Shown here one piece after another: positions 4,824 to 53,743 of a stretch of 60,046 nt of DNA. The DNA lies in NCBI GenBank assembly GCA_024508855.1, contig JANINJ010000011.1, positions 1 to 60,046 on the forward strand, given 5' to 3'. The DNA is from Xanthobacteraceae bacterium. Lineage in GTDB: Bacteria; Pseudomonadota; Alphaproteobacteria; Rhizobiales; Xanthobacteraceae. The position numbers were made by a program, and so were the translations under genes. Below the pieces are notes generated by a model. It worked only from the letters and a program-made list of their open reading frames with translations, ran no database searches and was not told the DNA's origin. Numbering within the stretch: the stretch's first letter is position 1; every line of letters starts with the position of its first letter.

Positions 4824-4926
4824 AGCGCAGGCGTTCTCCCTGGGGTTGTGCAAGTCCGGTACCCCTGACGCCAAAGTGAATCGCGAACGCTGGACGCTGC
4901 CGTCTTGATACAGGAGAGAAACGGGC

Positions 4927-4952
4927 AAAAAAATACCCGCCAGGAGGCGGGT
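4927..4952 (-). terminator. rho-independent terminator in repeat A
   Basis: On the minus strand, a 7-bp GC stem (ACCCGCC/GGCGGGT, loop of 4) is followed by a run of seven T. It would stop transcripts leaving the GH43-GH2 operon of module 1. The same structure is kept in copies B and C. Confidence 0.85.
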
Positions 4953-5082
4953 TGAATCTATTTTCTTGGAGAAAGATAGAGGAGACATAAGCATCATGCT
5001 GCATCGCACAAGAACTGTCCAATGACGGTTCGTGATACCTCAAATGCGCCCAACCCATATCTCATAAGACTAGGTTTCAAAC

Positions 5083-5107
5083 TCGACATTACCGAAAATA
5101 TTGTCGA
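5083..5107. other. candidate recombination core, copy A
   Basis: Arms TCGACATTA and TATTGTCGA (8 of 9 positions symmetric) around the 7-bp spacer CCGAAAA. Arms and spacing are kept in copies B and C, while the spacer differs by one or two bases. The layout matches tyrosine-recombinase core sites. Function is inferred. Confidence 0.5.
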
Positions 5108-5367
5108 TTTAAGAACACCATCATGGTATTTTGCTGATAATCAATCGTTTCGAGCAAAACTATGCTCTATACGATAGTTGCTTACCACCTGCGACGGCTT
5201 TGCTGGCGCTTTGGCTCTTACGAATCAAGGAGTTAGCTCAGCACCACAGTTTGCACCACATGAGTCCGCCGCTGCAGTACTGGGTGCGTCAATTAGCTAT
5301 CTCCAGCAAGGTACCGGCAGTGGCGCGGTAATCGGAGCCACTGCCGTCAAATTGAGCCAATTCAGCT

Positions 5368-7845
5368 CTACGGTTTGTCGTCGACCGGCGGCGCCGCCAC
5401 AGGCACGTACGCTACCGGCGCGACGGCCCTGACCGGAATCGTCAGGTGTGCGGCCCGTAACCCGGGAGCGCTGGCGTCGACTTCGATCGAACCACTGCTA
5501 TCCCAGTTGCTCTGCACGAGCAACTGGGCCAGGCCGTTGAACAGTTTGCGCGTACTGCCTTTCTCGTCTTCGTGTGAATTCGGGTCGCCATTGCCATGAC
5601 CAATCGACTGGCCCGCGCCAGCGATGGTAAACCGCACTTCGTCCTGCGCGAGCGGAACCGCCCTGCCCTGTGCATCAAGCGCGCGGACGGTGATCGGCAT
5701 GGCGTCGCGCCCGTCGCCATCGAGGGCGGCCCGATCCGGCACCAATTCCAGCGCGACGGCCGGGCCGGTGGTCTCGACCCGCGCGCGCGCGACTTCCTTG
5801 CCGCCTGTGTAGGCGATTGCTTCCAGCGCGCCTGGCGCATAAGCGACCTTGAAGTCGTTCATCCGGTAATGGTCGACCTTCTGCTCCCCGATTTCCTGAC
5901 CGTTCAGCAGGAGCTTGACGCGTTCGGCGTTGGACATCACCCTGACGACAATCTGCTGGCCCTCCTTGCCGGCCCAGTTCCAGTGCGGCGCGATGTAGAC
6001 GAGCGGGCGATCCTTGATCCACTGGACCTGGTGCATGTAGTACGCCGTCTTCGGAAAGCCGTTCAAGTCCATGATGCCGAAGAACGAACTGACCGAGGGC
6101 CACGATGCGTAGGGCCAGGATTCGCCGTGATAGTCGAAGCCCGTCCAGACGAAGCCGCCGGCGACGAAATCACGTGTGCCGATCGCTTGCCAGGCGTCGC
6201 GATGGGTATTGCCCCAGGCCGGCGCCTCGGTGTCGTAGCTGGTTTCAATATGACGCGCCTTGTCGGTCGCGAATTCGCCGCGTGTCATGAATGCCGACGT
6301 ATCCTCCGAACTCGTAAAAGGTTTATCGGGACGGACCGCATGGAACTTGTCGTACTCGGGAATCTGATAATTGGCACCGACCACGTCCACCGCGTGCGAC
6401 ACGTTCAGCGGCGTCAGCAGACCGTTGCTCATGGCCGCAGTGGTTGGCCGCGTCCCGTCGAGTGCCTTGGCAACGGCCACCATGCGCCGCGCCATTTCGT
6501 AACCAACCTCGGTCGCCTGCACGGGTTCTTCATTGAACACCGACCACAGGATCACCGAGGGATGATGGCGATCGCGCTTGAGCATCCACTCGAACTGCTT
6601 CATGTAATCCGGCGACGGATTGAAATTGCGGTTCTCGGCCATCACCAGGAAGCCCATGCGGTCGGCCATGTCCAGCACCTCGGACGCGATCGCATTGTGC
6701 GAGAAGCGGATCGCATTGACGCCGAGTTCCTTGAGGCGGCGCAGGCGATATTCCCAGATCGCATCCGGCACGGCGACGCCCACGCCGGCATGATCCTGAT
6801 GCAGGCAAACGCCTTGCAGCTTGACGTGCTTGCCGTTCAGGAAGAAGCCTTTTGCGGCGTCGAAGCGCAGCGTGCGAAAGCCGGTATCGAGGGCAAGCCG
6901 GTCCACCACCTTGCCATCGCGCCGCACGGTCGTGGTGACGCGGTAGAGCGTGGTCCTGTCGAGAGACCACGGCATCGGATCGCGTATCGTCATGGGCAGC
7001 GACGCGGTCACCTGCGTCAGCACCGGAACGTCGACCGACGTGCGGCTGCGGGCCACCTGCTTGCCATCCGGGCCGGTCACCACCATTTCGACCTCGACGC
7101 GCGCGGCCTGCTTGCCGTCGTTGTCGAGCGTGACCGTAGCCGGAATTTCCCAGGTGCCGCCATCGGTCTTGCGCGGCGTGACGCGCACCCCGTCGGGCAC
7201 CACGTGCACGGCATCGGTCTTGACCAGCCAGGTGTGCCGATACATGCCAGCCCCCTCGTACCACCAGCCTTCCATCGCATCCGCATCGACGCGGACCGCG
7301 ACGACGTTGGCGTGCTGGTCGCCATAATGCAGGTACGGCGTAATGTCGATGCGCACCTCGTTATAGCCCGACCAGTTATGGTTGACGAGGTTACCGTTCA
7401 CCCACACCGTGGCATGCGTGGCGATGGCGCCGAATTCGAGTTCGACGTGCCGGCCACGATCGCTTTCGGGCAGCGCGATATAGCGTCGGTACCAGCCGAT
7501 GCCGCGTGGGCGAAAGCCCTGGGCCATATTCGCTTTCGGATCGAATGGCTGTTCGACCTGCCAGTCATGCGGCAGGTCGAGCTTGCGCCAGGCGGTGTCA
7601 TCGAATTTCACGGCTGCCGCACCCGACGCCATGCCGGCCTTGGTGGCGTAATACGTTTCATCCTGCGTGGCGGGCACGTGGAATGGCACATCCCCAAGGT
7701 GAAACAGCCAGCCGCGATCGAGCGACAGCCGTTCGCGTCCGGCGTCGGCGTACGCCGGCATGACGAACAGCCCGCCGAGCAGTGCGAACAAAACATGACG
7801 AACCAAAAAACGCCAACCAGGAAAAACAGACTTGTCCAGCTTCAT
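5368..7845 (-). CDS. GH2 beta-galactosidase-like glycoside hydrolase, secreted
   Basis: About 825 residues from the ATG at 7845 (MKLDKSVFPG); the longer upstream reading frame is not needed. A signal peptide (residues about 12-33, ending MPAYADA) points to the periplasm or outside. The GH2 order is visible: jelly-roll (GWYRRYIALP), immunoglobulin-like domain, then the TIM barrel with acid/base E439 in WSVFNEE and probable nucleophile E514 in TSSEDTSAFMTRGEF, then WTGFDYHGE. C-terminal beta domains follow. It should remove non-reducing beta-galactosyl (or related) units. It is the second gene after the GH43 enzyme, 34 bases downstream, and is followed by the repeat A terminator. Exact substrate is unknown. 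Confidence 0.9.
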   Translation of the reverse strand: MKLDKSVFPGWRFLVRHVLFALLGGLFVMPAYADAGRERLSLDRGWLFHLGDVPFHVPATQDETYYATKAGMASGAAAVKFDDTAWRKLDLPHDWQVEQPFDPKANMAQGFRPRGIGWYRRYIALPESDRGRHVELEFGAIATHATVWVNGNLVNHNWSGYNEVRIDITPYLHYGDQHANVVAVRVDADAMEGWWYEGAGMYRHTWLVKTDAVHVVPDGVRVTPRKTDGGTWEIPATVTLDNDGKQAARVEVEMVVTGPDGKQVARSRTSVDVPVLTQVTASLPMTIRDPMPWSLDRTTLYRVTTTVRRDGKVVDRLALDTGFRTLRFDAAKGFFLNGKHVKLQGVCLHQDHAGVGVAVPDAIWEYRLRRLKELGVNAIRFSHNAIASEVLDMADRMGFLVMAENRNFNPSPDYMKQFEWMLKRDRHHPSVILWSVFNEEPVQATEVGYEMARRMVAVAKALDGTRPTTAAMSNGLLTPLNVSHAVDVVGANYQIPEYDKFHAVRPDKPFTSSEDTSAFMTRGEFATDKARHIETSYDTEAPAWGNTHRDAWQAIGTRDFVAGGFVWTGFDYHGESWPYASWPSVSSFFGIMDLNGFPKTAYYMHQVQWIKDRPLVYIAPHWNWAGKEGQQIVVRVMSNAERVKLLLNGQEIGEQKVDHYRMNDFKVAYAPGALEAIAYTGGKEVARARVETTGPAVALELVPDRAALDGDGRDAMPITVRALDAQGRAVPLAQDEVRFTIAGAGQSIGHGNGDPNSHEDEKGSTRKLFNGLAQLLVQSNWDSSGSIEVDASAPGLRAAHLTIPVRAVAPVAYVPVAAPPVDDKP

Positions 7846-7879
7846 TGCGTCGTTCCAATTCAAGTAAAAAATCAGCCGA

Positions 7880-9271
7880 TCAATACACGTAGGGCCAGCC
7901 ATCCGCCGTGAAACCGATCCGGTTGATACCCAGCGTCGGATTGCCATTGTTATTGGCATCGTAGTAGTGGTAGACCATCAAAGGGCCGTCGCTGTCGGTC
8001 ATGAGGCTCTGGCCGCCGGGTCCCTTGATGTTGCCGTGCGCGCTCAGGACGATCGTGCCGCCGCCGCTCAGCAAATTGACACCGCCGCGGTCCAGGTAGG
8101 GGCCCGTCACCGAGCTCGAACGGCCAACGATGATGCGATAGGTACTGTTCACACCGCTGCAGCAGTTATTGATGGACGCGAAGAGGTAGTAATACCCGTT
8201 GTAATAGTAGAGATACGAACCCTCCAGTCCCTTTGGACGCTGGGCCAGGTGGTAGTTCGTCGTATTGGCCGTCGATTGCTTGCCGGTGGCCGGGTCCAGC
8301 TTGATCAGGTAAATGCCGTTCCACCACGATCCGTAGGACATCCACCAGCCGCCCGCCTGGTCCTGGATGATGCTGGGGTCGATGGCATTGTAGGGCGTCG
8401 ATGCGCTCGACGTGACCACGGTCCCCAGGTCCGTCCACGCCGTGCTGTTCGGCGTGGACGCGCTGGCGACACCGATGGCCGAGGTCTGCGATCCGTAGCT
8501 GGATGCGGAATAGTATTGGTAGTACGTGTTGTTCATCCGCACCACATTCGGCGCCCACAGCGTGCCGCCCTTGGTATAGGTGCTCGTCCAGGCAGGTATC
8601 GGCGCCAGTGCACTGCCCGCATTCGTGAAATTGATCCGGTCGCTCGACGACGCCAACGTATTGTTGGTACCGTACAGCCAATAGGTCCCGCTGCCGTCGC
8701 GCAGCATGAACGGATCGTGTACGCCCGTCCCGTTGCCGCTCACGGCGCCCGGCGCCGGATACGGATCGGTGCCGGTGCTCACCAGCTGCCATTCCTGGCA
8801 CAGGCAACCGGACGCACTCCATTGATCAATGACGGCGCTCGTCGACGTATTCCCTTGGTAGACGTCGAGGTACAGGCCACTGTTGACGTTCTTGATCAGA
8901 TAATTGCCATCGGACGCCTGGGTGACCGTCCACAGGTGGTCCGCCGTGCCGTTATCGGCCCACTGGACGATTTGCGCGCCCTCCGATTTCGATCCGCTCG
9001 ACACGCCCAGCAGCTGATGGGTCGCCATGTTTTCGATGTTGTACTGGCCGCTGCCCATCGAAATGAAATGCCACAGCTGTTCGCTGCCGCCGGTGTCGCT
9101 CCATTGAATCACGTTGCTGCCCGCAGCCTGGCTGGCGCCGGGAATCGCGAGCATCAGTCCACTATTGACGTTTTTGATCTTGAATTGCACGCTGTCGCTT
9201 ACCGCTACTTGCGCGCGCGCCTGGGTTGCCAATGCCGTCAGTAATACCAGTCCTACTACGAATCTTTTCAT
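7880..9271 (-). CDS. RICIN-type CBM plus GH43 arabinanase-like enzyme
   Basis: 463 residues. The start is set at 9271 by a GGAGG six bases upstream (MKRFVVGLVLL). Signal peptide 1-21. Residues about 22-165 are a beta-trefoil with three repeats of the form NVNSGLMLAI...VIQW, a carbohydrate-binding RICIN fold. The GH43 five-blade propeller follows with general base D186 (VHDPFML), pKa-modulating D298 (AIDPSII) and acid E350 (GLEGSY), plus the vicinal cysteines NNCCSG seen in endo-arabinanase-like members. It probably cuts alpha-1,5-arabinan. First gene of the operon with the GH2 enzyme. Its leader contains a strong terminator hairpin at 9419-9444. Confidence 0.9.
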   Translation of the reverse strand: MKRFVVGLVLLTALATQARAQVAVSDSVQFKIKNVNSGLMLAIPGASQAAGSNVIQWSDTGGSEQLWHFISMGSGQYNIENMATHQLLGVSSGSKSEGAQIVQWADNGTADHLWTVTQASDGNYLIKNVNSGLYLDVYQGNTSTSAVIDQWSASGCLCQEWQLVSTGTDPYPAPGAVSGNGTGVHDPFMLRDGSGTYWLYGTNNTLASSSDRINFTNAGSALAPIPAWTSTYTKGGTLWAPNVVRMNNTYYQYYSASSYGSQTSAIGVASASTPNSTAWTDLGTVVTSSASTPYNAIDPSIIQDQAGGWWMSYGSWWNGIYLIKLDPATGKQSTANTTNYHLAQRPKGLEGSYLYYYNGYYYLFASINNCCSGVNSTYRIIVGRSSSVTGPYLDRGGVNLLSGGGTIVLSAHGNIKGPGGQSLMTDSDGPLMVYHYYDANNNGNPTLGINRIGFTADGWPYVY

Positions 9272-9418
9272 AACCATCCTCCAGTGAGTGTCGGCGCCAT
9301 ATAAAGCAGGGAAAAAGCCACCCCAATCGCTTTTCCGCAGCCTGCGATACCGCTTTTGCGATGCCGACGTGTAATCGTCCAAAAGCGGAAAAAACGTACG
9401 TTAGGCAGATCCTCCAGC

Positions 9419-9444
9419 AAAAAAGTGGCAGCCGAAGCTGCCAC
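9419..9444 (-). terminator. intrinsic terminator or attenuator in the GH43 leader
   Basis: Perfect 8-bp stem GTGGCAGC/GCTGCCAC with a 4-base loop, followed on the minus strand by six T. It lies about 150 bases upstream of the GH43 start and downstream of the operator pair, a position that suggests attenuation rather than simple 3' termination. Confidence 0.8.
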
Positions 9445-9629
9445 AAAGGCCACTATGGCCAAGGAGACGAAAACGGTTTATTTGTTTTTCAGGAGCCGAC
9501 CGGTGTGCCGCCGCTAGACCGGGCCCGATCGGCTGCATCGAGTGTGTACCAGCGCGCCAGCGCATCCCGACTTTCATGGCTCGCAACCGAGGAGGATCGA
9601 TGTGGCATGGTCAATAGTTCCGCGTTTGC

Positions 9630-9641
9630 TTTAACGTTAAA
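9630..9641. promoter_or_regulatory. LacI-type operator O1
   Basis: Perfect palindrome TTTAACGTTAAA with a central CG, typical of LacI-family operators. It shares its core with five other sites in module 1. Confidence 0.75.
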
Positions 9642-9659
9642 TCAAATGTCAGACAATAC

Positions 9660-9677
9660 TAGTTGAACGTAAAACTA
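9660..9677. promoter_or_regulatory. LacI-type operator O2
   Basis: TAGTTGAACGTAAAACTA, an imperfect palindrome centred on CG, 33 bp from the O1 centre and about 55 bp before the LacI-type gene. Confidence 0.65.
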
Positions 9678-9730
9678 ATTTCAAGGAAAATCCTGACATT
9701 AATTCACATGCAGGATTTTCGGATTTACCT

Positions 9731-10753
9731 ATGGCAACCATCAAGGAAGTAGCGGCCCTTGCGGGCGTCACGCCGACCACCGTTACCAACGTTCTGCGCG
9801 GACGCGGCAGGACTGGCGAATCGACCCGGCAGCGCGTGCTGGATGCTGTCGCGCACCTGGGCTACCGCCCCAACCTTGCCGCGCGGGCGCTGGTCGAACG
9901 CAAGGCCCCCACCTTCGCCCTGGTACTCACCTGCATCACGAATCCCTTCTATCCGGAATTCATGCTGTACGTGGACCAGGCCACCCGCAAGCACCAGCGC
10001 TACCTCATCGTTTGCAATACCGACTACGAAGCCGACAAGGAAACCCGCTTCCTCGACGAAGTGGCGGGCTCCTTGTCCGACGGTGTCATCGTCGCCAACA
10101 ATCCGGGCCTGAACGTCGAGCATCTCAAGCAGGTGGTAGCCCAGGGCACGCCCGTCGTCGTCAACCTCTGGGAAGACGCGGACACGCATCCGGGACTCCC
10201 CTGCCTCGCCTTCGACGGCCGCGAAGCGGGTCGCATGGCGACAAGACACCTGGTCGAACTCGGCCACCGGCAGATCGGCGCGGTCATCGCCAGCCCGAAA
10301 GACGGCATCCACAACCTGCGCTACCTGGGCTTTCGTGACGTCATGCGCAAAGCCCGTCTTTCCTGCCCTGCTTCGGCGGTGCGGTTTTGCGCCGACACCT
10401 TCGAAGCCGGAAAAGAGGCGGCGCTCGACTTGCTGTCCGTCAGGGCCGACCTGACCGCGATCTTCGTCTCGAACGACCTCGCCGCGCTGGGCGTCCTCGA
10501 AGCCGCCGCCCACCTGGGACGTCCGGTCCCCGCCGACCTTTCTGTGGTAAGCATCACCAACATCATGGCGTCGAGCCAGTCGCGTCCGGCACTGACGACG
10601 GTGGCCATCCCAACTGCCGCGATGGCCGTGCGCGGCGTGGAGTTGCTGATGGAAATCCAGGCGCGCAAGCACGACGCGCCGCCGATGGAGTGCATTCCCG
10701 GACTGGAATTGATCGTCAGGGAATCGACGGCGGCGCCGCGCCTGCGCGCGTGA
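9731..10753 (+). CDS. LacI-family transcriptional regulator
   Basis: 340 residues. The N-terminal helix-turn-helix with hinge helix is clear (ATIKEVAALAGVTPTTVTNV, then GYRPNLAARALVERK). The rest is a periplasmic-binding-protein-like effector domain (about 60-335). It is divergent from the GH43-GH2 operon and convergent with the TonB receptor. Paired CG-centred palindromes occur here and at the two other promoter regions of module 1, so it very probably controls the whole cassette as a repressor relieved by an arabinose- or galactose-derived sugar. The effector is inferred from the neighbouring enzymes only. Confidence 0.93.
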   Translation: MATIKEVAALAGVTPTTVTNVLRGRGRTGESTRQRVLDAVAHLGYRPNLAARALVERKAPTFALVLTCITNPFYPEFMLYVDQATRKHQRYLIVCNTDYEADKETRFLDEVAGSLSDGVIVANNPGLNVEHLKQVVAQGTPVVVNLWEDADTHPGLPCLAFDGREAGRMATRHLVELGHRQIGAVIASPKDGIHNLRYLGFRDVMRKARLSCPASAVRFCADTFEAGKEAALDLLSVRADLTAIFVSNDLAALGVLEAAAHLGRPVPADLSVVSITNIMASSQSRPALTTVAIPTAAMAVRGVELLMEIQARKHDAPPMECIPGLELIVRESTAAPRLRA

Positions 10754-10768
10754 AACATCAACGTGCGA

Positions 10769-13393
10769 TCAGTTCTTCCAGTTCAGCGCCAGCCCGAACG
10801 TGCGGTCATAACGGCGGGTATCGCGTGGATACAGCCGCTGGTCGGTCCAGTAATCGACATACTGGAAGTTCAGCAGGTTGGTGCCGGTCAGGGTTACCGA
10901 CAGGTTCGGCGTGAACTTGTAGCTCAGTGAACCATCCAGCGTGGACATCGGTGCAGCGATCAGATCGCGCGCCGGCGCGCTGCCCGAATTGCTCGGGTGA
11001 TCTCCATAGACCTCCACGAATTTCGAACGCCAGTTATAAGCGAGGCGCGCCGATACGCCGGCCCTTTCATACAGCGCGACCAGGTTGTACGAATTCTTCG
11101 ACATGCCACTGAACGGCTTGCCCTGCAATCCCGGCACGATGGACGACGTCAGGCCGCCTTCCATATAGCTGACATTCGCCTCCATGCCGAAGCCGCCCAG
11201 CCAGCCCGGCAGCCTGTCGTAGAACTGGCGGTACGACATTTCCAGGCCTTGCAAATGGCCATTGTCGGTGTTGAACGGACGGCTGGTGTCGTACTTGAGG
11301 CCCTGGAACATTTCGGGCACCGATTTGTTGATGATGTAGCCGTCGAAGTTATGCCGGAACACGGTCGCGCTAAGCATGCCGGTCGGTGCGAAATACCATT
11401 CCAGCGCCGCATCCAGGTTCTGGCCAGTGAACGGCTTCAGGTTTGGATTGCCGCCACTGGCCGTCGCCTGCACTGTCGTGCCGTTCGCCGCGACGTAGGC
11501 CGTGCCGGGATTGAGCTGTGCAAAATTCGGACGCGTCAACGTCTTTGCGTAGGCAAAGCGCGCAATCACGTCATGCGGCAGCTTGGCCTTGAAGTTTGCA
11601 CTCGGCAGCACGTCGGTGCCGCTCGCGCTGACCGGCGTCTCCACGTACTGGCCGTTGACCTGGCTCTTGCCGATCAGGTCGGAATCGGTCCGCGTCACGC
11701 GCACGCCCAGCAGACCGTCAACGGGAATGGTGCCGACATCGAAGCCGATCTTGCTCGACACGTACATCGACATGTTCTTTTCGACGTCCTTGAAGAACGA
11801 ACCTGGATCGAGTCCCTTGGCGGCCGGGTTGCCCGTCACCGCCTGCCGCACCGTTGCAGTATCGTCCAGCAGGTAGCCGGCGCATGGCGTGTACCAGCTC
11901 TGCGTGCCGTAATCGCGCGACAGCGTCGGCGTGTTGCAGGTCATGCCGGGCAGCGTCGATGCCTTGACGTTTTTCGGCGCAGAAGCGCTGCCCTCGAACG
12001 ACTTGATCGACTCCGCCGTGCGGTGGTTGGCGCGCACGCCGGCCAGGAATTCCTTGAACAAGCCGTCGTTCTCCGGGGTAAAGGCGGCGTCCGAGCGGAA
12101 GTCGGTCGAACTCCCCTTGTCGTTGCCGTAACGGTCGAACAGCTGCAACAGGTTGATATTGGCCGCATTGCCGATATCGAAGCCGCTGTATTTCACATAC
12201 GCGCCGCCGTCGACATTGGTCTTGCCGTACGCGTTCGGAACGTTGGTAATCACGTCCAGAATCGGATTGCGCCAGACGTATTTCGAGTCGGTATGCGCCA
12301 GTTCGGAGGTCAGGCGCAAGCCAGGCGTGACCCGCCACTTCGCACCAAGGGCGATCTGGGACGTCTTGTTGTCCGCGTTGCGCGCCTGCGTCGACAGGAT
12401 CGTGTTGGCGTTCTGCGAAGTCACCGTATCGACTTCCTTGGTGCCCGGAATCATGGTGGCGCTGCTGCTGCTGGCCCAGAAGGGAAAGCCCACCAGCAGG
12501 TCGGTCTGGTCGTTACCCTGGAAATGGGAAGCCAGGCCCTCGGCGTAGAATTCCAGGTCGGCGTTGGGTTTGTACTGCGTGGCGAAATTGGCGGCCGTGC
12601 GTTTGCGCTTGCCGTAAATCGCCTGCAGGCCCAGCACGTCCGGACCGGTCGAGCCCGCTCCGAGCCAATCCTTCGAGATCGGGAAAGACTGGAAACTGCG
12701 CTCTTCCCAGTAATCGCTCTTCACGTACGACAGGCCGACCAGCGCGCCGAACTCGCCGGCTTCCGTCTTCCAGCGATTCGAGAACAGGGCGTTCGCTTCT
12801 GGGTTGGTACGGTGCGCCTTGTCCAGGCGGCGTGCGCCCGCGTTCACGCTGACGGTGGCGCCCTTGAAGTCGAACGGGCGATTGGTGCGCACGTCGATCA
12901 CGCCGGCGATACCGCCTTCAAGCAATTCGGCGCTCTGCGATTTGTACACATCGACGCGCTTCAGCATCGTCGACGGAATGTCTGCCAGCTGGATATAGCG
13001 GCCGGTCGTCGTGAACATTTCACGGCCGTTGAGCAACGTCGAAATGCCCGGCAGGCCGCGGATCAGCACCGAATTGGCTTCGCCGGCATCGCGCCGTACC
13101 TGGATGCCGGTAACGCGCGCGAGCGTCTCGGCCACGTTCGTATCCGGGAATTTGCCGATATCGTCGGCGACGATCGAATCGACGACGTTGTCGGCATCCT
13201 GCTTGATTTTCTGCGCCGTCTGCGCGGCCCGGCGCACGCCGGTGACCACCACGACGGTGTTCCCGTCCGCTTGTGCCGTATCGGCCGGGGCGGCTTCCTG
13301 TGACCACGCCGGAGCGCTGCCCAGGGCGCCGGCCGACGCGAGTGCGACCACCGTGACCTTGAGCGCGAATGGCGCCGTTGTGCTTCTTTTCAT
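10769..13393 (-). CDS. TonB-dependent receptor, carbohydrate type
   Basis: About 874 residues from the ATG at 13393, which has GAGGAG upstream. Signal peptide about 1-31 (ending SAPAWSQ). The plug domain begins with VVVVTGVRRAAQTAQKIK and DDIGKFPDTNVAETLARVTG, the pattern of the Caulobacter/Xanthomonas carbohydrate receptors. A long 22-strand barrel follows, ending in an aromatic C-terminus (LALNWKN). It would import oligosaccharides released by the GH43 enzymes across the outer membrane using TonB energy. Transcribed alone; two operator-like palindromes lie 58-139 bases upstream of the start, fitting control by the neighbouring LacI-type protein. Confidence 0.93.
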   Translation of the reverse strand: MKRSTTAPFALKVTVVALASAGALGSAPAWSQEAAPADTAQADGNTVVVVTGVRRAAQTAQKIKQDADNVVDSIVADDIGKFPDTNVAETLARVTGIQVRRDAGEANSVLIRGLPGISTLLNGREMFTTTGRYIQLADIPSTMLKRVDVYKSQSAELLEGGIAGVIDVRTNRPFDFKGATVSVNAGARRLDKAHRTNPEANALFSNRWKTEAGEFGALVGLSYVKSDYWEERSFQSFPISKDWLGAGSTGPDVLGLQAIYGKRKRTAANFATQYKPNADLEFYAEGLASHFQGNDQTDLLVGFPFWASSSSATMIPGTKEVDTVTSQNANTILSTQARNADNKTSQIALGAKWRVTPGLRLTSELAHTDSKYVWRNPILDVITNVPNAYGKTNVDGGAYVKYSGFDIGNAANINLLQLFDRYGNDKGSSTDFRSDAAFTPENDGLFKEFLAGVRANHRTAESIKSFEGSASAPKNVKASTLPGMTCNTPTLSRDYGTQSWYTPCAGYLLDDTATVRQAVTGNPAAKGLDPGSFFKDVEKNMSMYVSSKIGFDVGTIPVDGLLGVRVTRTDSDLIGKSQVNGQYVETPVSASGTDVLPSANFKAKLPHDVIARFAYAKTLTRPNFAQLNPGTAYVAANGTTVQATASGGNPNLKPFTGQNLDAALEWYFAPTGMLSATVFRHNFDGYIINKSVPEMFQGLKYDTSRPFNTDNGHLQGLEMSYRQFYDRLPGWLGGFGMEANVSYMEGGLTSSIVPGLQGKPFSGMSKNSYNLVALYERAGVSARLAYNWRSKFVEVYGDHPSNSGSAPARDLIAAPMSTLDGSLSYKFTPNLSVTLTGTNLLNFQYVDYWTDQRLYPRDTRRYDRTFGLALNWKN

Positions 13394-45730: not shown

Positions 45731-48022
45731 TTACACGGCGGCCAGCACGAACGGTACCGGCGTGCCCGCCACCGAGTCCGGCGCGATCACGACTTCGAAC
45801 ACACCGGGATCGGTCCGCGTCTTCGTATCTGCATGCACGTAAGCGAGATCCTGTGCGGTCAGCGTGAACTCGACGTCCGCGCTCGCGCCGGGCTCGAGGT
45901 CGACGTGCCGGACACCCTTCAGCGCGCGGATCGGCTGGACGACCTCCGCCACGCGGATCCGGATGTAGAGCTGCGCGACTTCATGATGCTTCGCCGTCCC
46001 GGTATTGGTGATCCGCGCCTTGACCGACAGCGACTCGCCTATGCGGATGCGCGGTCGTCCGATCTCGGTCGCGCCATAGGCGACCGTCGAATATCCGAGT
46101 CCGTGACCGAACGGATACAGTGCACTGGTCGACACTTCGCGGTAGCGCGCACCGACGGGCGGTCCTTCCACGAGGCTTGGCCGGCCGGTCGACCGGTGGT
46201 TGTAGTAGAACGGCTCCTGGCCGGCGCGACGAGGAAAACTCACCGGCAAGCGACCTTGCGGTGCGAAGTCGCCGAACAGCACGTCGGCGATCGCGTTGCC
46301 CGACTCCGAACCGAGGAACCACGTGCACACGATGGCCTGGGCGTTCTTCACCGAGTTGGGCAGTTCCAGCGCCCGGCCGTGTTTCAGCAGGATCACCATC
46401 GGCTTGCCAACCGCGGCGACCGCATCGATCAGGTCGACCTGCGCCTTCGGGATCGTGATGTCCGCGCGCGACGCGCCTTCGCCGGACATATTGGTCGCCT
46501 CGCCCACGTAGAGCACGACCACGTCAGCGGCACGGGCGGCGGCGACCGCCGCGCCGATGCCGCCATCGAGCGGCCTCTCGATGCCGCAGCCGGGAACAAC
46601 AGCGAGAGCCGCATTGGCGCCCAGGGCATCCCGTACACCCCGTTCGAGCGTCACGGCCGACTTCATGTCCGGGAACACCATCCAGGGTCCCAGCGCATTG
46701 TTCTTGTCCGTGACGAACGGGCCAATCAATGCGAGCGCCTTGCCCGACTTCGGCAGCGGCAGGACGTTGCGCTCGTTCTTCAGCAGGACGATCGACTTGC
46801 GCCCCGCTTCACGCGCGAGGGCGACGGCCTCCGGCCGGCGGATGTCCGTCCCCATGCGCGCCGGATCGAGCGAGCGGTAGGGATTCTCGAACAGGCCCAG
46901 CGCCTTCTTCACGCGCAGCACGCGCCGCACCGCCTCGTCGACGACCGCCATCTTCAATCGGCCCGACTGGACCAGTGCCGGAATGTGCTTGAGGTACAGG
47001 CCACCCTGGATCGACATGTCGCAACCGGCGGTGACGGCCTTGAGGACGGCGTCCGCCTCGTCGGCCGCGTAACCGTGGTCGACCAGTTCCTTCTCCGAAT
47101 TGAAGTCCGAGACGACGAGGCCGCGGAACGCCCATTCGCCGCGCAGGATGTCGGTGAGCAGGTGGTGGTTGCCGGTCGACGGCACGCCGCCCGTGTCGTT
47201 GAAGCTGGCCATCGTCGTCAACGCGCCCGCGTCGAACGACGCCTTGAACGGGGGTAGGTGCACTTCACGCAGCGTGGTTTCGGGAATGTCGGCCGTGTTG
47301 TAGTCCATGCCGCCCTGCACGGCGCCGTAGCCGGCAAAGTGCTTCGGGCAGGCCAGCAGCGAATCGTTCGCTCGCAGGTCGGCGCCCTGGAAGCCGCGCA
47401 CGCGCGCTTCGGCGAGGCGGCTGCCCAACCATGGATCCTCGCCCGCGCCCTCCACGACACGGCCCCAGCGCTGGTCACGGGCGATGTCGACGGCGGGCGC
47501 GAACGTCCACTGCACGCCGAACGCCGTCGCCTCGATGGCCGTGGCCCTGGCCGTGCGCTCGCACAGGCCGGCGTCGAAACTGGCCGACTCGCCCAGCGGG
47601 ACGGGAAACGCGGTCTTCAGGCCGTGGATGATGTCGGCCGCAAAGATCAGCGGGATGCCGAGCCGGGACTTCTCGACCGCGATCTGCTGCATGGTGCGGC
47701 CCAGCTTCACGTCGTCGGCGTTGAACAGGCCGGTGAGGCGACCTTGCGCGATCTGGTCGAGCGTCGTCTGCAGAGCGGGCTCCGGTCCCGTCGTGGGATT
47801 CACGAGGCGCCCGATGCCCAGCGCACCGTTCATCGTCAGCTGGCCCGCCTTTTCCTCGACCGTCATGCGCTTCAGCAGCCGCTCGATGAACGGATCGGTG
47901 GCGGGCGCGCGCATGGCGGCGAAGGCCGGCATGCCGAAGCCGATGGTCGTGACGGCCATGGAACCGGCCAGGAACGTCCGGCGCGATGCGCTGAACTGGG
48001 GATTGTCGTTCGTCGTTTCCAT
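45731..48022 (-). CDS. GH3 beta-glucosidase/xylosidase, Tat-type signal
   Basis: 763 residues from the ATG at 48022 (METTNDNPQFSASRRTFLAG), with a twin-arginine-like signal ending near PAFAA. GH3 barrel: MTVEEKAGQLTMNG, CPKHFAGYG (KH) and nucleophile D306 in VVSDFNSEK. The alpha/beta sandwich and Fn3-like C-terminal domain are present, so the length is normal for a BglX-type enzyme. Second gene of the operon, seven bases after the upstream GH3 stop, followed by the DUF1593-like remnant. Confidence 0.92.
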   Translation of the reverse strand: METTNDNPQFSASRRTFLAGSMAVTTIGFGMPAFAAMRAPATDPFIERLLKRMTVEEKAGQLTMNGALGIGRLVNPTTGPEPALQTTLDQIAQGRLTGLFNADDVKLGRTMQQIAVEKSRLGIPLIFAADIIHGLKTAFPVPLGESASFDAGLCERTARATAIEATAFGVQWTFAPAVDIARDQRWGRVVEGAGEDPWLGSRLAEARVRGFQGADLRANDSLLACPKHFAGYGAVQGGMDYNTADIPETTLREVHLPPFKASFDAGALTTMASFNDTGGVPSTGNHHLLTDILRGEWAFRGLVVSDFNSEKELVDHGYAADEADAVLKAVTAGCDMSIQGGLYLKHIPALVQSGRLKMAVVDEAVRRVLRVKKALGLFENPYRSLDPARMGTDIRRPEAVALAREAGRKSIVLLKNERNVLPLPKSGKALALIGPFVTDKNNALGPWMVFPDMKSAVTLERGVRDALGANAALAVVPGCGIERPLDGGIGAAVAAARAADVVVLYVGEATNMSGEGASRADITIPKAQVDLIDAVAAVGKPMVILLKHGRALELPNSVKNAQAIVCTWFLGSESGNAIADVLFGDFAPQGRLPVSFPRRAGQEPFYYNHRSTGRPSLVEGPPVGARYREVSTSALYPFGHGLGYSTVAYGATEIGRPRIRIGESLSVKARITNTGTAKHHEVAQLYIRIRVAEVVQPIRALKGVRHVDLEPGASADVEFTLTAQDLAYVHADTKTRTDPGVFEVVIAPDSVAGTPVPFVLAAV

Positions 48023-48029
48023 AGTCTCG

Positions 48030-50264
48030 TCAGGGTTTGATCCGTTGCTCGTCCAGGCGCACCTTCGCCTTGAGGACGTGTTGGCCGGCATCTTCGCCGA
48101 CCTCGATGTCGTAGGTGCCCCCCGCCACGTGCCAGTTGCGAGCCGCGACGTCGAAGCGCGCGATCACGCGCGGATCGACGTCGACCGACACCTGCCGGCT
48201 TTCTCCCGGCTTCAGGTCGACGCGGCTCCAGCCGACGAGGCGCTTGGCACCGTCCACGCGGGCATAGACCTGGGCGACGTCGGCGCCCGGGCGCTTGCCG
48301 GTGTTCGCAATCGTGAACGACATGCGCGGTGTCGCGCCGCCGGTCACGCGCAGGTTCTTGTACGAGAAGCGGGTGTAACTTAGTCCGTGACCGAACGGGA
48401 ACAGCGGCTTCGCCCCCGTCTTGTCGAACCAGCGGTAGCCGGCATTCGCACCCTCCGGATAGGTCACGGAAAACGGTTTCATGTCCTTCGGCAGCCCGTA
48501 GAGGTCGCGCTGTACCGTTTCCCCGGCCATCTCGTAGCCGGGAATCGTCGGATTCGGGAGCTGCTGTTCGCTGGCCGGGAACGTCATCGCCAGATGGCCC
48601 GACGGGTTCACTGCGCCCGTCAGGACCCGCGCAATCGCTTCGCCACCCCGCTGTCCCGGATACCAGGCTTCGAGCACGGCGCCGGCCTTGTCCAGCCACG
48701 GCATGAGGACTGGGCCGCCCGTGACGAGTACGACGACTGTCGCGGGATTCGCACCGGCGACCGCGGCGATCACGTCGTTCTGGTTGTCGGGCAGGTTCAG
48801 GTCCTTCACGTCCATGGTCTCGGTTGTGAACTGCTCACCGATGACGACGACGAGATCCGCCTTCCGAGCGGCATCCGCCGCACGTTGAGGATCGGTGCCG
48901 TCGTCGAAGGACACGGTCGCCTTCGGCAGGGCATTGCGCAAGGCGGCGACAGGGGACGAGTTGCTGTACAGCTTACGGCCAAACGCGGCCGGAATCTTCA
49001 GCACGGCGCCGCCCACGGGATTCACTTGCGACGACCCGCCTCCGCCCGCAAGGATGCCGACGTCGGCATGGCCGCCCACGACGAGGATGGTGCGTGCAGA
49101 CGCCGCGATCGGCAGCAGATTGCGCGCGTTCTTCAGAAGGACGATGCCGCCCTCCGCGACCTCCTGGGCGATGCGCCCGTTCGCGTCGTAATCGATGTCC
49201 CTGTGCGCGGGCGGATGGGTGTCCAGGCCGACGGCATGGATCGAGCGCAGGATGCGCCGCACCGACCTGTCCACGTCTGCTTCCGTGACGGTCCCGGCAG
49301 CCAGCGCCGCGCGCAGCTGTGAGCCGAAATAACCCGCGTCGGCGGGCGTGGTGCCGGATTCCTGGTCGAGGCCCGCGCGAATCGTCGGGCCATGCACGGC
49401 ACCCCAGTCGGACATCACGAAGCCCTTGTACCCCCAGTCGCGGCGCAGGACGTCGTTCAGCAGGAACGAGTTCTCGCATCCGAACGTGCCGTTGATCTTG
49501 TTGTAAGCACACATCACGGAGCCAGGCTGGCCGATCTCGATGCCGATCTCGAACGCCAGCAGGTCGCTCTCGCGCAGGGGGGCTTCCTCCATGTCCGCGC
49601 TAAGGATAGTCCGGCCGGTCTCCTGCGTGTTCAGGGCGAAGTGCTTGATGGTCGACATGACGTGGTTCGACTGCACCCCGCGGATGGCATGTCCGGCCAG
49701 CGTACCAGCCAGCAGAGGATCCTCGCCAAAGTATTCGAAATTGCGACCGTTCCTCGGTTCGCGCGCCAGGTTGACGCCGCCCGCCAGAAGGACGTTGAAA
49801 CCCTTGTCGCGCGCCTCCGCGCCGATCATGGCGCTGCCACGTTCCACAAGTGGCGCATTCCAGGTCGATGCCAGCAGGACGGTCGAAGGCAGCGCAGTGG
49901 CGACGTCGCCCGGCCGCAGCCCGCCCATCATGTTGGCAACGCCGACGCTCGCGTCGCTCTCCGTCAGGTAGGGCACACCAAGGCGCGGGACGCCTTTGAC
50001 ATAGCCCGCGCCCTTGGCGACGTCGGGCGAAAGCTTCGGTTTCGCGGCGAACGGGTTGCTGCCACGGACGAGATCGAGTTTTTCGTCCAGCGTCATCTGT
50101 TTCAGGACCGACTCGGCCCAGACGTCGTCCGCGTCCTGCGCCATGGCCGGCAGCGGGGCAACGCCCGCCGAGTACAACGCCGCCAGGCACGCCGAGACGA
50201 CCAGCCTGTTTCGGTGCCTGTTCTTCCCTGCCCTCATAGAGCCCGCGATCGCTTCCAGTTTCAT
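48030..50264 (-). CDS. GH3 beta-glucosidase (thermostable BglB-like branch)
   Basis: 744 residues from the ATG at 50264 with AAAGGAC upstream. Signal region about 15-42. This GH3 lacks BglX-type N-terminal features and instead reads MTLDEKLDLVRGSN, then STIKHFALNTQETGR (KH) and nucleophile D286 in VMSDWGAVHG. The sandwich domain has VVLVTGGPVLMPWL and the Fn3-like tail begins near GLSYTRFSYKNL. Homologues often act on flavonoid or terpenoid glucosides as well as cellobiose; the substrate here is not shown by the sequence. First gene of the GH3-GH3 operon; site S4 lies 61 bases upstream. Confidence 0.92.
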   Translation of the reverse strand: MKLEAIAGSMRAGKNRHRNRLVVSACLAALYSAGVAPLPAMAQDADDVWAESVLKQMTLDEKLDLVRGSNPFAAKPKLSPDVAKGAGYVKGVPRLGVPYLTESDASVGVANMMGGLRPGDVATALPSTVLLASTWNAPLVERGSAMIGAEARDKGFNVLLAGGVNLAREPRNGRNFEYFGEDPLLAGTLAGHAIRGVQSNHVMSTIKHFALNTQETGRTILSADMEEAPLRESDLLAFEIGIEIGQPGSVMCAYNKINGTFGCENSFLLNDVLRRDWGYKGFVMSDWGAVHGPTIRAGLDQESGTTPADAGYFGSQLRAALAAGTVTEADVDRSVRRILRSIHAVGLDTHPPAHRDIDYDANGRIAQEVAEGGIVLLKNARNLLPIAASARTILVVGGHADVGILAGGGGSSQVNPVGGAVLKIPAAFGRKLYSNSSPVAALRNALPKATVSFDDGTDPQRAADAARKADLVVVIGEQFTTETMDVKDLNLPDNQNDVIAAVAGANPATVVVLVTGGPVLMPWLDKAGAVLEAWYPGQRGGEAIARVLTGAVNPSGHLAMTFPASEQQLPNPTIPGYEMAGETVQRDLYGLPKDMKPFSVTYPEGANAGYRWFDKTGAKPLFPFGHGLSYTRFSYKNLRVTGGATPRMSFTIANTGKRPGADVAQVYARVDGAKRLVGWSRVDLKPGESRQVSVDVDPRVIARFDVAARNWHVAGGTYDIEVGEDAGQHVLKAKVRLDEQRIKP

Positions 50265-50324
50265 GCTTGTCCTTTCCGAGACTTTTTCTTCGATCATAAT
50301 CGGTCGATCAGGCCGTCAGGGCAT

Positions 50325-50338
50325 CGTCCGTTCGGACG
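50325..50338. promoter_or_regulatory. CGTCCG-TT-CGGACG palindrome, site S4
   Basis: Arms identical to S1, in the divergent region between the GH3-GH3 operon and the isomerase-like gene; could serve both. Confidence 0.72.
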
Positions 50339-50416
50339 GTGCAGGGCAGTGCCCCCATCTTCACAATCGCCAAGGTCAGAGAACCATGATGAACTATGTT
50401 CGCGCACAAAGAAGAT

Positions 50417-51283
50417 ATGAAAACGACACGAGCCATACTAGCCCTGCTCCTCACCCTGTTCGGGGTACCGGCACTTGCCGCGACGCCAAAAACGGCACCG
50501 CTCCTCGCCCTGCAATTGTGGTCAGTTAAGGATGAGATCAGGCGAGATTTTGACGGGATGCTCGGACGGATAGCCAAGGTGGGCTTCCAAGGCGTGGAAT
50601 TCGCCGGCCAGTTCGGCCCGTACAGGGGCAATCCAGCTGGATTGAAGGCTGTCCTCGACAAGAACGGCTTGCAATGCGCCGGTGCGCACGTGATGCTGCC
50701 CCAGCTCGCGCAGCAACATTTCGTGGCGACGACGGACTTCTACCGGACACTGGGCTGCGCCAACCTCGTGGTATCGGTTGACCCGCGTGGCGCCACGATG
50801 GCGCGAAGCGCGGAACTGGCCAGCGACCTCGCCGCACTCTCTGCGAAGCTGGCGACCTTGGGCATGCGCATCGGCTACCACAACCATGCGCCGGAGATGT
50901 TCGGTCCCGTAGGCGGTACGCCATGGGACGTTATCGCGCAAAACACCCCTCGGGAAATGATCCTGCAACAAGATGTGGGCTGGACACTGTCTGCGGGCAA
51001 TGACCCGGCTGCATACGTACGACGCTATCCGGGTCGCACCATTACCACGCATTTCAAGGCCAAACCGACTGCAGACCCGACCAGCGTGCCGATCATCGGC
51101 AAGGACGGGGTGGACTGGACGGAACTGCTGCGCGCTGTACGCGAGACAGGCGGCACCCAGTGGATCATCGTCGAGCAGGAAGACTATCCGGACGGAATGG
51201 GGCGACTAGAGTCAGCCCAGGCGTCGCTGGAGGGATTGAAGGCATCGATGACGCTCGTTCTTGACCCCACCTCGCTGAAGTAG
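50417..51283 (+). CDS. secreted sugar phosphate isomerase/epimerase-like TIM barrel
   Basis: 288 residues from the ATG at 50417 (MKTTRAILALLLTLFGVPAL), with a signal peptide. The xylose-isomerase-like TIM barrel shows LALQLWSVKDEIRRDF, VGFQGVEFAG, IGYHNHAPEMF and QQDVGWTLSAG, with conserved H and E/D metal ligands. Secreted members of this family are often found with polysaccharide genes; some act as 3-keto-sugar hydratases or epimerases on glycosides. The exact reaction cannot be told. Divergent from the GH3-GH3 operon with site S4 between them. Confidence 0.82.
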   Translation: MKTTRAILALLLTLFGVPALAATPKTAPLLALQLWSVKDEIRRDFDGMLGRIAKVGFQGVEFAGQFGPYRGNPAGLKAVLDKNGLQCAGAHVMLPQLAQQHFVATTDFYRTLGCANLVVSVDPRGATMARSAELASDLAALSAKLATLGMRIGYHNHAPEMFGPVGGTPWDVIAQNTPREMILQQDVGWTLSAGNDPAAYVRRYPGRTITTHFKAKPTADPTSVPIIGKDGVDWTELLRAVRETGGTQWIIVEQEDYPDGMGRLESAQASLEGLKASMTLVLDPTSLK

Positions 51284-51406
51284 CACGGTACGAAAAGCAG
51301 CCATACGAAATCGGCGGCGCACACAACTTTCGAAGTCTGCGCTGACCGGCACGCTTACCAAAACAAGCTGAAATCCGCGCCAAATTTAGATCCTCATGCT
51401 TATCCT

Positions 51407-52504
51407 ATGAAACGAAATCCCCTTATCTTGACGTTAACGCTATTAACCCTGCGCTTTTTCTTGAGTGCCAATCTCGCCTGGGCGGCTACTAAGGTACCTG
51501 CGAGTGACAGCCATCTCCAGTATTCCGGACGCATTGACTTCTCGTCACCGTCCGCACCGGTGCTGTCCTGGCCACAGTCCAGCGTCGCGGCCAACTTTAC
51601 TGGCAGCTCATTGGCGATCACTCTGGATGACAAGAGCGGTGCTAACTACTTTAACGTCATTCTGGACGGTGACGATGCCCACCCCGTAATTGTCCGTGCC
51701 CGCCAGGGCAGCAAAACATATGAGATTGCAAGCGGTTTGGCCCCGGGCAAGCACAGCTTTTTGATAACCAAGCGTACCGAAGGCCAAGAAGGTGAGACGG
51801 TATTTTTAGGCGTCGAGCTCGCGGACAATGGCCGATTGTTGCGACCGTCGCCAAGGCCGTTGCGTCGCATCGAATTCTTTGGTGACTCCGTGACCAGTGG
51901 CATGGGCAACGAAGCGCCAATCAATGGCGTGGACGCTCTAGCACGAGAAAAGAACAGCTACTTATCCTATGCTGCGATCACCGCGCGGGCATTGAATGCG
52001 GAGCTTCATATGACCTCGCAGAGCGGCATCGGCATCATGGCAAGCTATGTCCCGTTCACGATCTGGGATTTTTACGACCAGTTGAACGCTGTAGGGAACA
52101 ACGACAGTCGCTGGGATTTCTCGGCATGGACACCTGACGTGGTTGTCATCAACCTCATGCAGAACGATTCGTCGCTAATCGGTCAGCTTCATAAACTGCA
52201 GCCTGAGCCCGACGACGAACAGCGCATAGCGAGTTACATGAAATTTGTAAGGCGCATCCGGCAACTTTATCCGAGGGCGTATATTGTCTGTGCGCTAGGC
52301 AGCATGGATGCAACCAAGACCGGTTCGCCTTGGCCCGGATATGTCAAAAGTGCGGTAGACCAGATCCGTATCGAGGACAACGACGCCCGTGTCGATACAC
52401 TTTTCTTTCCGTTCACTGGGTATAGCCAGCACCCACGCCTCATGCAGCACAAGATGAACGCCGATCGTTTGACCAGCTTTATCAAAATGAAACTAGGTTG
52501 GTGA
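51407..52504 (+). CDS. CE2-family acetyl-xylan esterase-like protein
   Basis: 365 residues, signal peptide about 1-27. The N-terminal jelly-roll (about 35-145) precedes an SGNH hydrolase domain with the catalytic serine S161 in FFGDSVTSGMG and the histidine H342 in YSQHPRL; together these define family CE2. It removes O-acetyl groups from xylan, glucomannan or other sugars. Codon use is visibly more AT-rich than in the neighbouring GH3 genes, suggesting a separate origin. Last intact gene of module 2. No CGTCCG site upstream. Confidence 0.87.
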   Translation: MKRNPLILTLTLLTLRFFLSANLAWAATKVPASDSHLQYSGRIDFSSPSAPVLSWPQSSVAANFTGSSLAITLDDKSGANYFNVILDGDDAHPVIVRARQGSKTYEIASGLAPGKHSFLITKRTEGQEGETVFLGVELADNGRLLRPSPRPLRRIEFFGDSVTSGMGNEAPINGVDALAREKNSYLSYAAITARALNAELHMTSQSGIGIMASYVPFTIWDFYDQLNAVGNNDSRWDFSAWTPDVVVINLMQNDSSLIGQLHKLQPEPDDEQRIASYMKFVRRIRQLYPRAYIVCALGSMDATKTGSPWPGYVKSAVDQIRIEDNDARVDTLFFPFTGYSQHPRLMQHKMNADRLTSFIKMKLGW

Positions 52505-52992
52505 ACAGTAGGGTACCGTCTAGAGTATCCATTGCATTTCGTGCAACTCTACGCGAGTGCGAGGGCAACGTAGCGACACGATCTGCAACTCGAGTTGCGC
52601 ATCGAAAAGACACCGGCGACAACAGATACCGCGAACAGCCTGAGGATCGGTACCTAGCGAAACCGGCGACTGCGAAAGAAGTCTCGCTGGGGGAACTGGG
52701 TGGCCACCGTCTGAATTGACGATGTACCCACTCCCCCAAAGCGCTCAACATCTGTGCATGTCCGTGCTGCTCGTTTCTGTCCATTCGCAGCTTTCGAGGC
52801 GACGCCTGCATAGCGGGTGACTGTTGGCCGACGTCAGCGGGACTGACGTTCGCTTCGTGCCAAGGGTCGGTCCGAAACGGTGACCTTGATCAAGGTCTTG
52901 CAATGCTCGGACAATGCCGAGCCGCACTCGAGTTTCTACCCGCCTACGCGAGCGCTTTATTGCCGTATACTCAATGTCAACCGCACAGATGG

Positions 52993-53033
52993 AAACGATA
53001 CCAAAACTTCTTTATTTTTAATTGGTATCGTTT
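52993..53033. repeat. 12-bp perfect inverted repeat, possible operator or hairpin
   Basis: AAACGATACCAA (52,993-53,004) and TTGGTATCGTTT (53,022-53,033) around a 17-bp AT-rich spacer. No gene in the immediate vicinity explains it. Confidence 0.75.
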
Positions 53034-53470
53034 TCAAAAAATATTTTGTCGTGAATGACGAGTCGGAAACCCAGGGCAGGATGCACTACCGTTTGATGTC
53101 AGCGCACAGTCCTCGCATGCGTACGCTCGACGGACCATCGGTTTGGCAAGACTATGCAGATGGCGACACGGCTTGTCTGGCCGCGTCCGCACTATGTGAC
53201 CGATACATGGAGTACGCGATGGACCGAAGGCCATCACGTCGGCACAGGCTGAAAACCGGTAATCATCGTGGCGTATGGCATACAACTGATCGGGGACATC
53301 ACACCGCGCCGCCCGTGCTGTGTCGCTCTAGCGCCCAGTTCGCTTTAGGCCAGCAAAGTCTGGACTGGCATGACCGCTCCATCGAGATGCACGACAAGAC
53401 ACGCTGGACGAAGTGGCGAACCGGGGAAGTAACTGTCCTGCCGAGCTGATGGCATGCTGCGCGTCAACAG

Positions 53471-53539
53471 TTCCACTTTTACTTCATTTCTCCAAGAAGT
53501 CTCACTTTTACTTCATAAACCGTTCCAGTTTTACTTCAT
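53471..53539 (+). repeat. three 17-bp direct repeats, probably an IS terminus
   Basis: TTCCACTTTTACTTCAT (53,471), TCTCACTTTTACTTCAT (53,500) and TTCCAGTTTTACTTCAT (53,523), starts 29 and 23 bp apart. Clusters of this kind occur at the ends of multi-site insertion sequences such as the IS21 family. They abut repeat C, whose homology to A and B begins only five bases later. Confidence 0.6.
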
Positions 53540-53561
53540 CGGACGACAGGAGAGAAACGGG

Positions 53562-53588
53562 CAAAAAAATACCCGCCAGGAGGCGGGT
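53562..53588 (-). terminator. rho-independent terminator in repeat C
   Basis: Same stem as copies A and B (ACCCGCC/GGCGGGT) with seven T following on the minus strand. Confidence 0.8.
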
Positions 53589-53718
53589 TGAATCTATTCT
53601 CTTGCAGGAAGATAGAGGAGACACGAGCGTCATGCTGCATCGCACAAGAACTGTCCAATGACGGTTCGTGATACCTGAAATGCGTTCAGTCCATGTCTCA
53701 TAAGATTACTTTGCAAAA

Positions 53719-53743
53719 TCGACATTAGCAAAAATATTGTCGA
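53719..53743. other. candidate recombination core, copy C
   Basis: Arms TCGACATTA and TATTGTCGA with spacer GCAAAAA. Confidence 0.5.

Follow-up and report, generated by a model that had tools for sequence, protein, structure and literature searches.

Introduction

The cer site of ColE1, at which XerC and XerD resolve plasmid dimers, is described as a 30-bp core (two 11-bp halves plus 8 bp) with about 180 bp of accessory DNA, and it encodes the 70-nt RNA Rcd, which induces quiescence (PMC5357621). The arms of dif sites are 11 bp each, one for XerC and one for XerD, around 6 bp (PMC5357621), and on Acinetobacter plasmids short recombinase-type sites, the pdif sites of dif modules, are described as bounding exchangeable cargo (PMC13141974). 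The present study deals with a 60,046-bp stretch of DNA, one complete contig (JANINJ010000011.1) of the 5.16-Mb draft genome of a Xanthobacteraceae bacterium, referred to below as the window. It carries three direct repeats, each including a recombination-like core and a match to the small RNA (sRNA) family RF02278, which mark the divisions of a sugar-degradation region.

In integrons, the recombinase gene lies at one end of the array, and each junction has a conserved sequence on one side and a different cargo on the other. The pdif sites occur in both orientations. The family RF02278 (Betaproteobacteria toxic sRNA) comprises double-hairpin or "toxic" sRNAs (ncS03, ncS05, ncS27, ncS62, and bdhR1; S17S is related). 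Several homologs per genome are reported in Burkholderia; in B. cenocepacia, those measured were more abundant in glucose medium, their CU-rich stretches were predicted to lie over the ribosome-binding sites of carbon-use genes, and overexpression of ncS27 slowed growth (PMC5688073). In B. pertussis, 92 genes, transporters included, are reported to rise in the absence of S17S, direct repression having been demonstrated for one regulator gene, and E. coli was hardly harmed by overexpression (PMC11722255). Four RNAs of this type are reported in Herbaspirillum (PMC7011215). The known members are dispersed in genomes and are not reported on plasmids in these accounts (PMC5688073, PMC4603805, PMC7011215, PMC11722255), and our literature search returned no published link between RF02278 and recombination sites in the texts it covered.

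We propose, with a probability of about one half, that the repeat combines a site for site-specific recombination with an sRNA gene of its own, and that catabolic blocks are accreted or exchanged through it.

Results

The repeat and its core in two replicons

The three copies in the window are all in direct orientation: A (4886-5112), B (15164-15390, 93% identity), and C (53522-53748, 82%). Each includes a 25-bp core of the form TCGACATTA-N7-TATTGTCGA, called site II here and assigned to neither strand, at 5083..5107 in A (centre CCGAAAA), 15361..15385 in B (CCAAAAA), and 53719..53743 in C (GCAAAAA). The cores are 10,278 bp (A-B) and 38,358 bp (B-C) apart, in keeping with an earlier sequence-only reading, which had described same-orientation direct repeats around two blocks. 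That reading had also called for a search for the same end with other cargo, and one was found: among 72,556 plasmid records, only Massilia putida NZ_CP019037.1 matched the repeat, at 318,894 (M1) and 424,269 (M2), two places in the same orientation and 105,375 bp apart. The repeats are thus direct in both replicons, as judged from the flanking repeat and the sRNA strand, and the five copies give ten pairs for comparison.

Each of the five cores consists of 9-bp arms, inverted and with one mismatch, on either side of a 7-bp centre, and such arms, inverted around a centre of 6-8 bp, are suggestive of the sites of tyrosine recombinases. When the arms are extended to 15 bp, the number of matching positions is 13 in M1, 11 in C and M2, 10 in A, and 9 in B. 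The core pattern, which was itself derived from copies A, B, and C, occurs 3 times in the window vs. 0.13 expected from shuffles. The geometry differs from the 11-bp arms around 6 bp of dif, and the five direct copies differ from the mixed orientations of pdif sites. What the locus has in common with dif modules is that short recombinase-type sites delimit blocks of plasmid cargo; the 7-bp centre, the attached sRNA, and the presence of one conserved and one variable side set it apart from them.

Similarity ends near the core in nine of ten pairs

To the left of the core, local alignments over 150 bp score 205-251 in all ten pairs; that the three window copies share sequence there had been stated in the sequence-only reading. 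To its right, over the same length, nine pairs score 12-18 and A/B scores 67 (300 random pairs: median 17, maximum 34). Blastn alignments stop 3-10 bp beyond the core in nine of the ten pairs, A/B being the exception: the similarity of C to A and B ends 3 bp past the core, C and M1 have five further bases in common, and A and M2 four. Window positions 2038-5110 match the M. putida plasmid at 85% through the recombinase, its partner gene, a palindrome (site I), and the sRNA, and the alignment ends 3 bp past the core; that of positions 4557-5111 with M2 ends 4 bp past it. Copies A and B form a single gapped alignment (81% over 452 bp) reaching about +140, in which the first 70 bp to the right are poorly alike and the clear part is a 72-bp segment (79%) starting at +71/+69. 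This segment (window 5178-5248 and 15454-15525, 79% identical) had no match on the plasmid records searched. The asymmetry originally proposed, with C alone lacking shared sequence to the right, therefore holds, the right-hand sharing of A and B being weak in its first 70 bp; identity breaks at the core, as expected of a crossover point, in nine pairs of ten, but not in A/B.

The left-hand DNA, in parts without any evident function, is about 83-84% identical over 529-906 bp (A vs. M2 and M1), and since such similarity persists over hundreds of bases on one side, its loss on the other looks like a joint rather than drift. Since A and B share right-hand sequence and M1 has a remnant of an insertion sequence there (part of an IS3-type transposase, Pfam rve_3, which starts about 80 bp beyond the core and is followed by an IS21 element), there are three right sides that clearly differ (A/B, C, and M2), and it is doubtful whether that of M1 makes a fourth. 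The right flanks of C and M2, each of which would be an outer end under the accretion model, are unrelated to each other. Taken with the second replicon, the breakpoints lend partial support to reading the core as a crossover point between cargo blocks.

Two other processes could bring different cargo to the same repeat. Repeats of about 200 bp with 88-93% identity are usable by RecA, and these repeats have that length and identity and adjoin different cargo in the two replicons, so that homologous recombination between pre-existing repeats might have shuffled the cargo, the core having no enzymatic part. This would leave unexplained both the common right edge of the repeats and the constraint on the core as compared with the linker described below, and we consider it very improbable. 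The core might also be the terminus of a one-ended element (rolling-circle, ISCR/IS91-like) or of another mobile element which copies variable lengths of left-hand DNA. The single fixed right end in nine of the ten pairs is what such an element would produce, as are the varying lengths of shared left sequence: about 3 kb (A/M1), more than 500 bp (M2), about 280-310 bp (B), and about 170-205 bp (C). However, a Pfam scan of the 27 larger ORFs from core A to core C (E up to 0.001) gave no match to a transposase, and the short left side of C abuts an array of three exact copies of TTTTACTTCA (53461..53545, plus strand), insertion-element-like by eye; the flank is short because the array occupies these positions. 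This origin appears quite improbable. Further TTTTACTTCA arrays, resembling by eye the end of an IS21-type insertion element, occur at L021 18412-18646 and L014 9984-10068.

A predicted sRNA gene at a fixed distance from every core

Each copy carries a match to RF02278 on the minus strand: 4927..4987 in A (50.1 bits), 15205..15265 in B (53.3 bits), and 53563..53623 in C (49.0 bits). The Massilia copies score 53.8 bits (M1) and 51.2 bits (M2), so that the gathering score of 50 bits is reached in four of the five copies, C falling just short of it. In all five, the 5' end of the sRNA lies 96 positions to the left of the core start, and transcription would point away from the core. A sigma-70-like promoter (TGGACA and CATGAT, 17 bp apart) precedes the sRNA of copy A at 4993..5021 on the minus strand; this is a consensus match only, in a region where 2 such matches were found vs. 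0.8 expected by chance. The promoter region is conserved across the five copies. The sRNAs have a CU-rich 5' end and a terminator hairpin and fold with z-scores of -3.85 to -4.47; a two-hairpin fold with terminator is predicted in A, B, M1, and M2, whereas the minimum-energy fold of C differs. Neither the sRNA nor the adjacent recombinase operon figured in the sequence-only reading. The possibility that the repeat is a coding sequence was rejected: the minus-strand ORF across the sRNA is 152 aa in A, 128 aa in M1, and 58 aa in M2, and, differing so in length, it is not kept.

The RF02278 match, the CU-rich 5' end, and the terminator hairpin are those of the described sRNAs of this family; unlike these, each copy lies beside a recombination-like core on plasmid-type DNA. 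The layout recalls ColE1 cer and Rcd, since all five copies combine a core with about 175 bp of DNA containing a match of roughly 61 nt, as compared with the roughly 180 bp and the 60-70 nt sRNA inside the site in that system. The differences are the 7-bp centre, the plasmid recombinase operon nearby, the family of the RNA, and the fact that several sites delimit cargo.

The mean pairwise identity among the five copies is 95.7% in the sRNA, 93.7% in the promoter, 70.0% in the linker from the promoter region to the core, 95.6% in the core, and 35.5% in the first 20 bp to the right of it. The linker, in which 8 of 20 positions are invariant, changes faster than both its neighbors, and the sRNA and the core therefore appear to be two separately constrained parts.

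These figures bear on a further alternative, in which what has been duplicated is an sRNA gene whose upstream operator is the palindrome; ordinary rearrangement would have spread its copies around the replicon, dosage would have preserved them, and the common right edge would only mark the limit of the selected sequence, together with insertion-sequence damage. The sRNA and its promoter are indeed among the best-conserved parts; the somewhat similar palindrome at the operon promoter (site I) could be an operator of the partner protein; the similarity of A and B crosses the core to about +140; the right side of M1 is partly an insertion-sequence remnant; and Burkholderia genomes, as mentioned above, have several RF02278 homologs each. 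On the other hand, with left-hand DNA devoid of evident function still 83-84% alike, an inherited right flank should be recognizable, and yet nine of the ten pairs end within 10 bp. The core is also as conserved as the sRNA in spite of the fast-changing linker between it and the promoter. This alternative seems rather unlikely to us.

The recombinase operon and site I

Next to copy A, on the minus strand, lies a gene for a XerC/D-like tyrosine recombinase of 417 aa (2235..3488), which is 95-97% identical to plasmid recombinases of M. putida and Massilia sp. WG5. It scores well under the cut-offs of the XerC and XerD models, yet with E-values of 1e-20 or better, and matches XerC-like and XerD chains in the PDB. 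Of 8 aligned relatives, all have the HW(L/F)RH motif and 7 have LGH...Y. Its score with the integron integrase model TIGR02249 is 44.9 bits, vs. a cut-off of 265, and the enzyme is thus not of the IntI type. The locus resembles integron cassette arrays (IntI, attI/attC) in having a recombinase gene at one end and junctions with one conserved and one variable side; besides the recombinase, it differs from them in its blocks, which are multi-operon units of 10-105 kb.

The partner ORF (3485..4312, minus strand) overlaps the recombinase start by 4 bp and gave no Pfam match at E 0.001 and no NCBIfam match at E 0.01; it probably consists of an N-terminal domain and a coiled coil, and looks KfrA-like by eye. 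Homologs of it lie directly ahead of the recombinase gene in those Massilia and Janthinobacterium plasmids that were compared, whereas a different gene occupies this place in the Bordetella record. From core A it is 0.77 kb to the start of the operon and 1.6 kb to that of the recombinase gene; M1 adjoins the orthologous operon collinearly, at about the same distance.

Site I is a perfect 13-8-13 inverted repeat (4318..4351, no strand assigned) upstream of this operon. It recurs with the same arms (11- to 12-bp, around an 8-bp centre) in M. putida, WG5, and Leaf139 and, in diverged form with an 8-bp centre, in one Janthinobacterium plasmid (L024), while none was found in L023 or L025. Homology ends beyond site I after 14 bp (window/WG5), 15-16 bp (WG5/Leaf139), about 5 bp (WG5/M. 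putida), and 37 bp (window/Leaf139). Site I may serve either as the target of the recombinase itself or as an operator for the partner protein.

In view of the identity to Massilia plasmid recombinases, a plasmid origin in a Massilia-like host can be inferred, and the DNA of the window is probably plasmid-borne. The same genome has a second recombinase of this family, 70% identical, at L050 5567-6820 (contig C1, 7366 bp); one motif similar to TTTTACTTCA lies near the right end of L050, at the truncated partner gene of this second recombinase.

Several observations weigh against the proposal that site II is a recombination site. If site I, whose centre is 8 bp, belongs to the recombinase, the enzyme may not act on site II, whose centre is 7 bp. 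The half-sites of sites I and II are only moderately alike, the best offset giving 8, 7, and 6 of 13 positions, where 0.5% of random window 13-mers reach 8 and about 3.6% reach 7. On the WG5 plasmid the recombinase is present, yet a search allowing 2 mismatches gave no site II, nor did a search of 21 kb of Leaf139. Copies A and M1 represent one inherited arrangement, and the adjacency to the recombinase therefore counts once. Inverted repeats of the core type also arise by chance, their geometry being no rarity by itself: a score of 11 of 13 matching positions is reached at 11 further places in the window, but by only one of its three cores, C. The 7-bp centre differs between the copies (CCGAAAA, CCAAAAA, GCAAAAA, and TCAAAAA). 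As the similarity of A and B continues to about +140, these are not two independent joints, and the joint at M1, with its right flank partly an insertion-sequence remnant, may have been made by insertion. Lastly, the searches described below brought up neither an empty site nor an excised junction or circle.

Cargo between the cores

Block 1, between cores A and B (5108..15360), is a glycan-utilization operon on the minus strand, comprising GH2, GH43 with RicinB, one ORF without any Pfam match, a TonB receptor, and GH43; the left-hand portion of copy B falls within its right end. Block 2 runs from core B to core C (15386..53718, no single strand); it includes the left part of copy C at its right end and consists mostly of glycan genes (GH106, GH43, four GH3, two GH35/42-like, and a CE2-type esterase), together with a TonB receptor, an SSF symporter, a glucokinase, a sensor kinase, and others. 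It further holds a HlyD/MFS/OEP efflux set, a flavin reductase, and a TetR regulator. The original description of two glycan modules thus fits block 1 entirely and block 2 for the most part, the latter three components being foreign to it.

In M. putida, the interval between M1 and M2 is largely catabolic and dominated by genes for aromatic compounds, instead of the glycan genes of the window; the same end, with the same recombinase operon, is thus followed by other cargo. The annotated replication and partition genes lie outside this interval, in a gene table known to be incomplete.

To the right of copy C, the window has a transposase fragment (54403-54783, DDE_Tnp_1_5) matching an IS5 family element of M. 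putida, a cluster (55052-59265) of thioredoxin-like, phosphatase-like, metallo-beta-lactamase-fold, YeeE/YedE-like, and TauE genes, of sulfur-metabolism type and partly present on Cupriavidus and Pseudomonas plasmids, and a segment (59398-59985) with 87% identity to a part of M. putida DNA where a recombinase gene adjoins a Tn3-family transposase. The window is devoid of tRNA genes, and attachment sites of the tRNA type were rejected on these grounds.

Distribution of the repeat, empty sites, and circles

The only good copies of the repeat in the genome are A, B, and C, a count which leaves out one 19-bp DNA match (E 0.55) and three Rfam matches of 19.6-26.1 bits. This agrees with the sequence-only reading, and the classification of the repeats as elements dispersed genome-wide was rejected. 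One of the weak Rfam matches (L004) is a terminator by eye; another (L005 1501-1580, contig C13, 26.0 bits) begins with TGTCTCCTCTAG, has a terminator-like end, and may be a remote relative of the sRNA at another genomic location.

Among 8 genomes of the genus, 397 of the order, and 385 of the class, the DNA unit was found in the source genome only; in the order and class searches, which scored only 2 candidates for each genome, copy C went undetected even there. RF02278 was detected in the source genome only, in sets of 8, 61, and 297 genomes, and in none of 8 chosen relatives above the cut-off, with one match of 29.1 bits. Since these searches scored 17-150 candidates per genome with no positive control, and RNAs of this type have been reported in Herbaspirillum, the absence of RF02278 from chromosomes is not established. 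With 4 candidates scored per genome, the recombinase was found among 391 genomes only in its own, at two loci. A relaxed core pattern gave matches with 0 mismatches in the source genome only, among 391 family genomes. Core-like palindromes with 2-3 mismatches occur in 18 other family genomes (L029-L046), vs. one match to the reversed-pattern control, and at none of these 18 loci did an Rfam match reach the gathering score. A search of viral contigs gave 0 exact matches.

A megablast search for the cargo on other plasmids, with 40386-53718 outside the search, returned nothing beyond the B repeat and fragments of 44-129 bp. The sequence-only reading had suggested looking for single-copy empty sites and excised circles, and here the outcome was negative for the right flanks of A, B, C, and M2 (M1-right was excluded). 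The A-right and B-right flanks gave no match; of the 46 records for C-right, 45 match from query base 112 on, within an exonuclease gene, and one, WG5, matches the last 45 bp only; and among the best 10 of 2216 records for M2-right, none but itself came nearer than base 575. A literature search returned no paper tying Massilia plasmids to site-specific recombination by a tyrosine recombinase.

Discussion

In the mechanism proposed here, site II, with arms of 9 bp to about 13 bp around a 7-bp centre, would be the recombination site, and a tyrosine recombinase, perhaps the neighbor of copy A or a relative of it, would cut the core and join circular catabolic blocks or whole co-resident plasmids there. 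Each junction would retain its left side (sRNA, promoter, linker, and half-core) and acquire a new right side, the outcome being arrays of cargo blocks with a copy of the sRNA at the end of each. The CU-rich RF02278 sRNA, if expressed, might pair with the ribosome-binding sites of transporter and carbon-use genes, as is thought for this family, and would then give a dosage-dependent damping of metabolism or growth, perhaps reading the number of sites as Rcd does at ColE1 cer. That a copy at each junction could damp the metabolism of the host in proportion to the number of sites is a guess. The stronger version, in which every attachment site carries its own damping sRNA, with one dose per catabolic block and an RNA checkpoint that evolved independently of cer/Rcd, is tentative and, in our estimation, somewhat unlikely.

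That each junction comes with its own sRNA is the greater surprise among these findings. If the proposal is correct, it would link the gathering of large catabolic blocks by plasmids with the adjustment of carbon use by an sRNA, and would provide a concrete site for the exchange of cargo in Massilia-type plasmids. It would also be a second case, unrelated to the first, of an sRNA inside a recombination site, and the Rcd checkpoint of ColE1 would then look like a general solution rather than an oddity.

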